DNA from: Candidatus Altimarinota bacterium
GTDB taxonomy: Bacteria; Patescibacteriota; Gracilibacteria; BD1-5; UBA6164
NCBI GenBank assembly: GCA_028698305.1
Contig: JAQVDN010000001.1
Coordinates: forward strand, 248,001 to 312,000
DNA: 64,000 nt
Direction: 5' to 3'
Shown here: positions 33,271 through 55,365 of the stretch, one piece after another
How positions within the stretch are numbered: position 1 is the first letter of the stretch
Layout of the letters: each line of letters starts with the position of its first letter
Notes under the pieces: model-generated
Told to the model about the DNA's origin: nothing
Databases searched by the model: none
Seen by the model: the letters and a program-made list of their open reading frames with translations, nothing else
Program-made: the position numbers and the translations under genes

Positions 33271-34629
33271 ATGAATGTAGATATTATATTACAATTACTA
33301 CTTGCTATGTGACTTGGTGCTCTTGTTTGAATGGAAAGATGAATAAATGAAAAAACTAAACTACTTAGTAAATCATCTATTTCATTTTGAGACATAAGAA
33401 CATTTTCACTTTTGTCTTTACTTTGAGCTATGAGTATTTGGTTAACTATGGATTCAAGTAATATTTTCTTTATAGCTTGAACTCTTTTTATAATATGACT
33501 TTTTATAGTAGTTTATTATTCTTATAGTATTTATAAAGAAAAACAATTTGGTTTAACTACAGAACTTGCTTCAATTGTTACATTTTTTCTTTGAGTTTTT
33601 GTCATGCTTGGTTATGTTCAAATAGCTATAATTATGTCTATTGTTTTGACATTTTTACTTTCGTCTAAAGGTTTAATTGATAGGATACTTGAAAAAGTAA
33701 GCAGAGAAGAGCTTAACAATACTATAAAATTTGCAGTTATATCAATAGTTGTATTACCACTTTTACCAAATGAAAAATTTTCTATTAGTGATATTTTAAC
33801 TTATATTTGATATACAAATCCATTAAATAACTCTATTTTAAATTTAGATTTTTTAAATTTTTATTGAATCTGGTTTTTCGTAGTTCTGATGTCAGCAATA
33901 TCATATGCTTGATATATAATGAGTAGAGTTATAGGAGAAAAATGAAGTATTTTGGCAAGTTGAGCAATTGGATGACTTGTTTCAAGTACAGCAGTTACCG
34001 CAAGTATGTCAGAATCAAGTAAAAAAGATTTAAAAAATACTTCTATGTATGTAGTTTCAACTCTTCTTGCTTCAACAATAATGTTTGTAAGAGTGATAAT
34101 AATAGTTTTATTTTTTAATATAAATATGCTTTCTTCAATTATTTACCCAAGTTTATTTATGCTTTTAGGTATGATTTTATATATGGTTTATTTCTATTTT
34201 AGTTCAAAAGATAGAGATTTACATATAGAAAATCTAAATTTTGAAGAAAAAAAATATAGTAGCCCATTTAGTATAGTTCCAGCATTAAAATTTGCATCAT
34301 TTGTTGTGTTTATTAAATTTGTAGCTTGAGTTTGAGCACTTTATAAAGATGTTTGGTGAGATTATTTTTTCTATATATTATGAATTATATCTTGACTTGC
34401 TGATGTTGATGCTATAAGTCAAACAATGGCAGTTGATTCAATTGATTGAAAAGTAGGTTTAGAAATAGCTGCAATGACTATAATAATAGCTGTTATTTCA
34501 AATAATTTAGTTAAATGATCTATTGCTATGAAATTTTGAGAAAAGAAATTTGGTTTTGCAGTTATGATGTGATTTGTAGTTTCAATGATTATGTGAATTG
34601 TTGGTATGGTATTTTTAAAAATTACATAA
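33271..34629 (+). CDS. MgtC/DUF4010-family membrane protein
   Basis: 452 residues with about twelve membrane spans. The N-terminal part is MgtC-like (LLLAMGLGALVGMERGINEK, and DIRTFSLLSLLGAMS). The C-terminal part matches DUF4010 (GAIGGLVSSTAVTASMSES, SGLADVDAISQTMA). Members are thought to be transporters or regulators of metal homeostasis; direct function is unproven. Many of its membrane glycines are TGA. Confidence 0.85.
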
Positions 34630-53375: not shown

Positions 53376-54359
53376 TTATTCAAATATAACTATTAAGTTG
53401 CTATCTTTAAAAATATTATTTTTAATTATGTTTAAAAAATGTCTTATATTATTTCATTTTATAAGTATCTTATAATAATATTGGTTATATTTTTTTGTAT
53501 AACTTGGATTCAATATAATTATAAAATCATTATTTTTATTATTTTCATCTAAAGTTTCCTTTATTTTTTCAATGTATTTTAGACCCTTATCTACATCTTT
53601 ACTTCTATATTCTAAGGTTGCAAATTCGCAAAAAGGAGGGTAATTGAAAAGCTGTCTTTCTTTTAGAGTTTTTATAAAAAACTCTTTATAATTATCATAA
53701 ACTATATCTTTTATTAGTTCATTATCACTAATAAAGCTTTGTATTATAAACTCTGTTTTTTCTCAATTTCTAGATCATCTTCATAAAAGTTGTTTTATAT
53801 TTGAATAAACTTTTTCACTTGTGTTGTATTTTGATATTTGTAATTCTTGCTCCAAAAGTATTACTCAAATTAGTCATATATTCTTGAAATCAAATCATGT
53901 TGTAATCATCTTAGTTCAAATAATAATTTGGGCATTTTTTATATTTTCAAGAGCATTTTGTTTTTCGGTTTTGTTTTTTACTATATCTGTATCAAGTCTA
54001 AATACATTTATATTAGGATATAAATCTTTTATAGAATTTTCTATTTGTAGAGTTCAAACTCATACTTTTTGTAGATTTTCGCTAGAGCATATTTCACATT
54101 TTTTTTCTATTTTTTGAGTATAATTACATATATGACAAATCATATTTTCTCAGTGAATACTCATAGAATTATCACAATATTTACACTTGTATAGATGATT
54201 ACATTTTTCACAAATAAGAGAACTATATTCTCATCTTTTATTTAGATATAATATAATTTTTTTATCATTTTTTAAACAAATATCTATGTTTGTAAGTAGT
54301 GTATTTGATAGATATTTATTTATTTTAGATTTATCTAGATTTAGGTTTACTAGTAGCAT
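53376..54359 (-). CDS. priA: PriA-like primosomal protein, C-terminal part only
   Basis: 327 residues matching the C-terminal half of PriA (~730 residues). KRGEYSSLICEKCNHLYKC and the following CxxC pairs are the zinc-binding region. QIIIGTKMITTGFDF and QLLGRGSRNG are helicase motifs of the second RecA-like lobe. The first lobe with Walker A/DEAD and the N-terminal DNA-binding domain are missing, and the upstream sequence does not encode them. It cannot be a normal helicase; it may load DnaB only or be degenerate. Confidence 0.82.
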
Positions 54360-54440: not shown

Positions 54441-54469
54441 TTGCAAAAATTACAATTATATATTATTAT
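54441..54469 (+). promoter_or_regulatory. Candidate promoter of the anti-SD-loop RNA
   Basis: TTGCAA (54441-54446), 17 bases, TATTAT (54464-54469), ending 6 bases before the hairpin. Confidence 0.35.
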
Positions 54470-54471
54470 GT

Positions 54472-54538
54472 ATATGAGTCATAGCAACGGTGTAAAGTTT
54501 CCTCCTTTAACTTTCCACTGTTATATGTCTCTTTTTTT
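54472..54538 (+). ncRNA. Candidate small RNA with an anti-Shine-Dalgarno loop
   Basis: An interrupted ~20-bp stem: GAG-CAUA-AACGGUG-AAAGUU pairs with AACUUU-CACUGUU-UAUG-CUC. The loop reads UCCUCCUUU, and a run of seven T follows at 54532. The hairpin follows no plus-strand gene; the gene to its left (priA) runs away from it. The loop equals the conserved CCUCCUUU end of bacterial 16S rRNA. It could be a stand-alone RNA or a leader/attenuator for the gene at 54601. The other 170 bases of this gap are plain AT-rich sequence. Confidence 0.5.
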
Positions 54539-54600
54539 GTGTTTAAAATTTAATAATGTTATAATTATTATTAATTAATTAATTAATAATCTTTTACTTT

Positions 54601-55365
54601 GTGAACTTAGAAGAAGAAAATAAAGAGTTAAAGAAAAAACTTCTCATAGCACAATCTTGGATGGAAAGGGAAGTAAAAACTCAAATAAATCTGATTTCAA
54701 AAGAAAAAATATCAAATCTATCATCATGAAATATTGAGGATTTTTTTCATGAAAATGTAGAAGAAATAATCACAACTTGAGTTTATAATTTCTTTTGAGA
54801 ACTTATGATTTTAAATACTCCAAAAGTAGTTTTAGAAAATATAATCTGAGCTGAAATTTTGTTTTATAATCAAAGACAAAATAAGTTTGCTGATTGATTA
54901 TGAATAATTAGTTCATATCATAAATCAATAGATTATATAATAGAAAGTACCATAACTAAGCCATTTAGAAAATTTGCAAAAAAGCATAATCAAACATTTC
55001 TTAGAAGAAATGATCCACTAGAAAAAACTCTTAATTTGGTTGTAAATAGTTGATATATATTGTGAATTGCTAAACTTTTTCATGCACTTAGTCTGATTAA
55101 AAAATGATGAAATTTATGAGATTTTACAAAATGTTTCAGTGATTTTTTAGATAATCATCTTTATATAAAAAACATACTTTTAGAGGAAAATTTCTATAGA
55201 TTATTAAAAATACTTGTTGATAGTGAAGTTTTTTGAAAAAAAAGACATGAATGAAAGATAACTTATGAAGAAACAAAAAAAACTAGAACTATACTTATTT
55301 GAGATTTAAAAGAACAAAATTGTGTTATTTATAAGCTCATAAAAATGTGACAAGTTGATATTTAA
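54601..55365 (+). CDS. Hypothetical helical protein (254 aa, GTG start)
   Basis: 254 residues, unrecognised. A Glu/Lys-rich N-terminal coiled coil (LEEENKELKKKLLIAQ) is followed by a helical domain with no membrane segment. The start is GTG at 54601. The candidate RNA ends about 60 bases upstream and might control it. It ends in a clear terminator. Confidence 0.65.

Follow-up and report, generated by a model that had tools for sequence, protein, structure and literature searches.

Results

A hairpin with an anti-Shine-Dalgarno loop lies between divergent genes

The window, by which we mean the whole 64,000-nt stretch of DNA that was analyzed, contains a hairpin at 54472–54538, flanked on one side by a minus-strand priA-like gene and on the other by a plus-strand gene. 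As these genes diverge, the hairpin terminates no annotated gene. The features of the locus are the following.

53376–54359, minus strand: gene for a short PriA-like protein (327 aa; PriA_C match above the Pfam cut-off)
54441–54446, plus strand: predicted −35 box of the RNA gene, TTGCAA (TTGCAA, TTGCAT or TTGCTT equally spaced from the hairpin in most family members)
54464–54469, plus strand: predicted −10 box, TATTAT; separated by 17 nt from the −35 box, with its end 3 nt ahead of where the modelled RNA begins
54473–54538, plus strand: modelled small RNA (covariance model positions 1–65; G000:C17:302473-302538, 85.8 bits; fold z of −7.4; covariation)
about 54476–54538, plus strand: predicted transcript, about 63 nt
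54476–54497, plus strand: 5′ arm of the stem (folding and covariation)
54498–54508, plus strand: anti-Shine-Dalgarno (anti-SD) loop, TTTCCTCCTTT (CTCCTT core constant in 32 of 32 distinct relatives)
54509–54531, plus strand: 3′ arm of the stem (folding and covariation)
54532–54538, plus strand: T run, with the hairpin a predicted intrinsic terminator of the RNA itself (from the sequence and from T runs in relatives)
54537–54565, plus strand: promoter-like TTGTGT-N17-TATAAT with extended −10 (TGTTATAAT) belonging to the gene at 54601; overlaps the T run of the RNA
54601–55365, plus strand: gene for a 254-aa protein of unknown family (genetic code 25; no Pfam match)

On the plus strand, 54472–54538 folds with an energy of −19.4 kcal/mol, compared with a mean of −5.8 for shuffled sequences (z = −7.41; none of 200 shuffles equaled it), and the fold of the minus strand is weaker (−15.7). 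The stem has 20 pairs interrupted by small internal loops, the loop at 54498–54508 reads UUUCCUCCUUU, and seven Ts follow. The hairpin is real, and chance is excluded. The fold and the flanking genes thus confirm the earlier note, which had described a stem of about 20 pairs with a loop and a T run, set in a divergent gap and ending no gene. Of the 14 occurrences of TCCTCCTTT in the 1.29-Mb genome, this is the only one that forms the open loop of such a hairpin.

The PriA-like protein lacks the N-terminal helicase half, and its Helicase_C and PriA Zn-ribbon matches fall below the Pfam cut-offs. Orthologues of similar length adjoin the RNA in about ten relatives.

The loop is conserved while the stem covaries in two families

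In a DNA search of 147 relatives, the hairpin turned up in the genus of the window and in several further genera of its family. When a covariance model built from an 18-sequence alignment was searched against 353 genomes of the class, it matched 25 genomes, all of one family, with E < 1e-5. A 26th genome, G018, was matched more weakly (first model, 26 bits; second model, E about 0.002); its locus combines the loop ACCUCCUUU with a matching stem. Since two sites in G033 lie at contig ends and were counted as one locus (assembly overlap), the RNA occupies a single locus per genome, in 26 of the 47 genomes of the window's family. Many SD-less relatives, for example all of genus g13, have no detectable copy. 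Weak model matches in g13, g2, g7 and others were inspected and rejected as plain terminators or a loop-less repeat. One such weak match is a 62-nt palindromic repeat without the loop, found as eight equal-scoring copies, mostly at contig ends, in G041 (contigs C5, C14, C17, C19, C20, C30, C34 and C48).

In the 25 matches, standard pairs fill 92% of pair cells, and two-sided changes occur at 13 of 21 pairs, a number reached by none of 500 shuffles. Sliding the strands by 1–3 columns abolishes the pairing signal. The alignment used for these counts was fitted to the structure; the initial alignment, made from sequence only, shows the same picture. Two pairs are mostly G·U in a single orientation (15/22 and 20/22), as fits a plus-strand RNA and not a DNA palindrome.

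Laxer filters yielded two matches in a sister family, with the same loop on an unrelated stem. A model made from these two found 10 genomes (E from 5e-18 to 1e-10), in all of which the loop, UUUCCUCCUUUAC, is identical; here 98.6% of pair cells are paired and two-sided changes occur at 7 of 14 pairs. CUCCUU is constant in every distinct sequence across both families, and loop identity (0.87 in the window's family and 1.00 in the sister family) stands against stem identities of 0.68 and 0.75. Since the loop core is constant while the stems vary, the loop is likely to carry the function, with the stem as scaffold. The question raised in the earlier note, whether in Gracilibacteria the loop is kept while the stem covaries, is therefore answered positively in two families, which strongly supports its proposal of an RNA that presents an anti-SD loop. 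That this small RNA is conserved and its anti-SD loop functional seems to us nearly certain. The two family forms may have had a common ancestor or may have arisen twice.

A phylum-wide search of 380 genomes returned the window's genome as the sole match. In a public genome collection, 51 stretches fit the pattern, and clear model matches occurred only in 15 that are labelled Candidatus Gracilibacteria or Patescibacteria; the pattern matches in Bacillus, Sphingobacterium and others gave no clear model match and were dismissed as chance. A viral origin was also considered and rejected: a pattern scan of viral contigs gave two matches, neither of which fits the covariance model, and the sister-family pattern had no match in viral contigs. 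In another family of the class, G134 contains a short terminator-like hairpin, GAAATAAA-UUUCCUCCUUU-UAUUUC followed by T7 (L327 1501–1539, minus strand), which may be a distant analogue of the RNA.

Most family members have the makings of a stand-alone RNA gene

In most genera of the window's family, a TTGCAA-type −35 stands 31–33 nt ahead of the modelled start and a TATAAT-like −10 stands 2–4 nt ahead of it. The sister family has promoter-like boxes in the corresponding place, with the −10 at 1–4 nt before the model start. Because these regions are AT-rich, a single promoter match means little, and the evidence lies in the fixed position across diverged genomes. T runs are strong in g1, g4, g6, g18, g5, g12, g8 and the sister family, and weak or absent in g10 and g20. 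Because promoter-like sequence abuts the hairpin and a T run follows it in most members, we expect a transcript of about 63 nt that comprises nothing but the hairpin, with its start at the first bases of the stem and its end in the T run. Judged by sequence, most members thus have what a stand-alone RNA gene would require: a predicted promoter at a fixed distance and a T run. In g10, g14 and g20, where the T run is weak or absent, only 25–60 nt separate the end of the hairpin from dnaJ. G019 has a further terminator about 20–30 nt past the hairpin, ahead of the next gene. For g10, g20 and G019, we consider it possible that the RNA is longer, is shared with dnaJ or undergoes processing.

The neighboring genes vary

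Except for priA, which was named from Pfam, neighboring genes were named by reading translated sequences. In the window's family, priA is often on the left of the RNA. Downstream lies the gene for the unknown protein in g1, g4, g6, g15 and g18 and dnaJ in nine genomes; elsewhere it is rlmN or a gene for a DUF808 protein or a pilin, and in some genomes a minus-strand gene or none. Upstream of the sister-family RNA lies ksgA or a gene for a membrane protein. Of 147 related genomes, 61 have an orthologue of the protein encoded at 54601, and in many of these the RNA does not adjoin it; the sequence TTGTGTTT after the T run, with a −10-like box 17 nt on, is kept in g1, g4, g6 and g18. An attenuator or thermosensor of dnaJ was considered and rejected, since dnaJ is without such a hairpin both in the window's genome, where it lies 9 kb away, and in relatives whose RNA has other neighbors. 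The varied neighbors, the promoter-like sequence of the gene at 54601 and the hairpin-less dnaJ together make a cis role unlikely as a general function. The suggestion in the earlier note that the hairpin could be an attenuator of the gene at 54601 fails on the first two of these points.

The host hardly uses Shine-Dalgarno sequences and has a variant 16S tail

The genome's own 16S rRNA ends in ...GGACUAUCUCCUUAUA and not in GGAUCACCUCCUUA, giving a tail of UAUCUCCUUA compared with the canonical CACCUCCUU. This 3′ tail, GGACUAUCUCCUUA, is a variant anti-SD and is uniform in the window's family and one sister-family genome (L167 1501–2977 for the own 16S; L168–L183). Because the tail differs from the canonical one, the RNA loop shares only CUCCUU with its own 16S. 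The match of the loop to the conserved 3′ end of 16S rRNA, as the earlier note put it, is therefore true of the canonical bacterial end but shrinks to CUCCUU for the host. We also considered whether the loop tracks the 16S tail of each genome and rejected this, as tails are uniform and loops vary.

In the 842 kb covered by our gene statistics (of a genome of about 1290 kb), AGGAG precedes 1 of 683 predicted genes and GGAG precedes 2 of 683, whereas a Bacillus/Enterococcus control run through the same script has AGGAG ahead of 29% of its genes. The absence of SD sequences from native genes is thus even more pronounced than had been claimed. The accompanying claim that foreign cassettes have them was not borne out in the window, where the sole SD-like start candidate, at 33952, looks protein-internal. 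SD scarcity is mostly similar among relatives, whether or not they have the RNA. In one RNA-bearing relative, G022, purM (L257 12065, plus strand) and a handful of further genes are preceded by an SD-like AAGGAGA, which sets this relative apart from the rest of the clade; the AAGGAGA-led genes were perhaps horizontally acquired. Since the Absconditabacteria, which also recode TGA as glycine, are already listed as SD-scarce and without CCUCC (PMC10783764), SD-lessness in this region of the tree is not itself new.

The start regions of the 683 genes have no excess of complementarity to the loop (mean duplex energy −3.6, compared with −3.6 to −4.4 for shuffled loops), so that targets, if they are mRNAs, should be few. 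No Hfq was found above the Pfam cut-off in the 11 genomes tested.

Other structured elements in these genomes

Structured repeats of approximately 110 nt lie beside tRNA genes (G000:C17 near 158450, 180053, 193030, 193269 and 199117; G000:C4 near 34602 and, on the minus strand, 34332; L180). Most are located just after a tRNA, and those examined by eye repeat, at their end, the 3′ half of the upstream tRNA, as in ACGAATCCCTGTTTCTCCGCCA after tRNA-Ser. Their closing stem changes together with the tRNA, and most contain AAAGGAGG. These repeats are absent from Rfam and have so far been seen only in the window's genus. A separate intergenic element with two hairpins (G000:C12:73680-73900, G000:C13:62500-62700 and L301 1400–1572) is also present in a g10 relative. 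Its loops, AAAAAGGAGGAAATTAAC and GTTAATTTCCTCCTTTTT, are complementary over about 18 nt, and it is possible that the element is a kissing-loop switch or the end of a mobile element.

Discussion

If the anti-SD loop is functional, with what does it pair? As the constant core complements AAGGAG, it most directly suggests base-pairing with tracts of the SD type. The comparative evidence supports a stand-alone gene for an RNA of about 63 nt, its entire product being one hairpin that displays the anti-SD loop. Our tentative proposal, which we hold with some reserve, is that this loop binds AAGGAG(G) tracts close to the starts of mRNAs, blocking or marking the mRNAs that carry them. Pairing would occur without Hfq, which a rigid hairpin with an open loop does not need in principle. 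Anti-SD-loop RNAs of Alphaproteobacteria have been reported or predicted to act through pairing (PMC10746234, PMC12559287). Since native genes hardly carry AAGGAG tracts, the RNA should spare native messages and would act on a few SD-bearing ones, chiefly recently acquired or foreign. The idea in the earlier note that such an RNA could favor native mRNAs or block foreign ones would agree with the SD-less genome. The AAGGAGA ahead of purM in the RNA-bearing G022 is an SD-like tract that is still present.

A regulator almost without native targets would be odd, unless foreign mRNAs matter. It is conceivable, if rather doubtful, that the RNA serves as a translation filter, with an SD-less clade that has altered its 16S tail keeping a canonical anti-SD RNA to capture SD-led messages. 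These messages could come from incoming elements or, if the RNA is delivered, from the bacterial host of such possible epibionts. As for the target, foreign messages are one candidate, and a protein or the ribosome are others.

The main rival to mRNA pairing, and a serious one even though we consider it unlikely, is that the RNA mimics the 16S 3′ tail, its CUCCUU loop titrating a tail-binding protein such as the Era KH domain, an enzyme of 16S-end maturation or decay, or a platform protein. The constant core corresponds exactly to the part that the RNA and its own 16S tail have in common, the loop of genus g10, UUAUCUCCUUU, copies nine nt of its own 16S tail, the tail itself is kept though SDs go unused, and an Era-like gene is present. 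However, most loops contain the canonical CCUCC and not the UCUCC of the host, and Era, which reads GAUCA and then CCUCC (PMC10582724), needs a GAUCA part that the loop lacks. A rigid hairpin is also unlike a single-stranded tail, and a check of 842 kb revealed no bS21. If the ribosome were the partner, the RNA could instead pair with AGGAGGAA inside 16S rRNA, a stretch that we take to be about positions 1176–1184 in E. coli. The 16S genes examined in family f1 contain UAGGAGGAAGG or AAGGAGGAAGG, which is complementary to UUCCUCCU. This seems improbable, as the loop variants of g10, g8 and g5 weaken the pairing while the 16S site is constant where readable, the sister-family site reads CGGGAGGAAGG and so gives a shorter match, and genomes without the RNA also have the site.

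A cis-acting 5′ leader, whether attenuator or thermosensor, would explain why the next gene in most genomes of the window's family is on the same strand and why g10, g14 and g20 combine a weak or absent T run with a close dnaJ. That the RNA generally acts in this way is nevertheless hard to credit when the downstream genes differ and are in some genomes on the minus strand or missing, the gene at 54601 carries its own promoter-like sequence, G019 has a second terminator between RNA and gene, the sister-family RNA comes after ksgA or a membrane-protein gene, and the window genome's dnaJ has no such hairpin. Least probable of all is an ordinary terminator, a chance palindrome, or a hairpin that acts in DNA, as an operator or in replication. 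Although a hairpin and T run in a divergent gap, forming an inverted repeat on the DNA, could be read in this way, a terminator is not expected to have a constant loop, the T run is missing in some members, one is followed by a separate terminator, the departures from a perfect palindrome are one-directional G·U pairs, and the element is single-copy with covarying stems. We regard these readings as largely refuted.

The conserved RNA family poses the question of why a free-standing anti-SD occurs across an order whose 16S tail and genes ignore the SD rule. The answer would bear on how translation initiates without SD sequences, on the retention of CUCCUU in 16S rRNA and on whether SD-lessness can act as a barrier to foreign genes. 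The rules for loop and stem described here make the RNA directly testable in a laboratory strain.

How does this RNA compare with known systems? A search of the literature found nothing on RNA regulation in this uncultured group, and Rfam gave no match at the gathering threshold anywhere in the window. The best, weak, resemblance of the hairpin is to the alpha-R8 family (suhB/mmgR, RF00519), for which it scores 13.5 bits compared with a gathering threshold of 41 (E = 3); the sister-family form matched only a microRNA family, at chance level. The alpha-R8 RNAs, which include MmgR and SisA-D of Caulobacter, pair through an anti-SD 10-mer (PMC12559287), but MmgR is Hfq-associated and active in hosts that use SDs. 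The alpha-r14 or "cuckoo" RNAs of Alphaproteobacteria, NfeR1 and its relatives, act in trans and have an ultraconserved, unpaired anti-SD motif on stems that differ (PMC10746234). The RNA described here likewise keeps its anti-SD motif constant in an unpaired loop while its stems diverge. However, alpha-r14 RNAs have three hairpins, each with CCUCCUCCC, whereas this RNA has one hairpin with UUUCCUCCUUU, and it belongs to a different phylum and to hosts whose genes are SD-less; no Hfq was found in the genomes tested, and no sequence relation was detected. As in an intrinsic terminator, the hairpin is followed by seven Ts and probably ends the RNA itself, but there is no gene to end, the stem is long, the loop is constant and several members lack the T run. 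Bacteroidia also retain the anti-SD of 16S rRNA without using SDs, as this lineage does; there, the anti-SD is sequestered by bS21, bS18 and bS6 (PMC9976891), and the agent is thus protein, with no free anti-SD RNA. The RNA, which would not be expected in such a setting, probably works like the anti-SD-loop RNAs but lacks the defining features of the named families tested, and is a member of an undescribed small-RNA family that is absent from Rfam.
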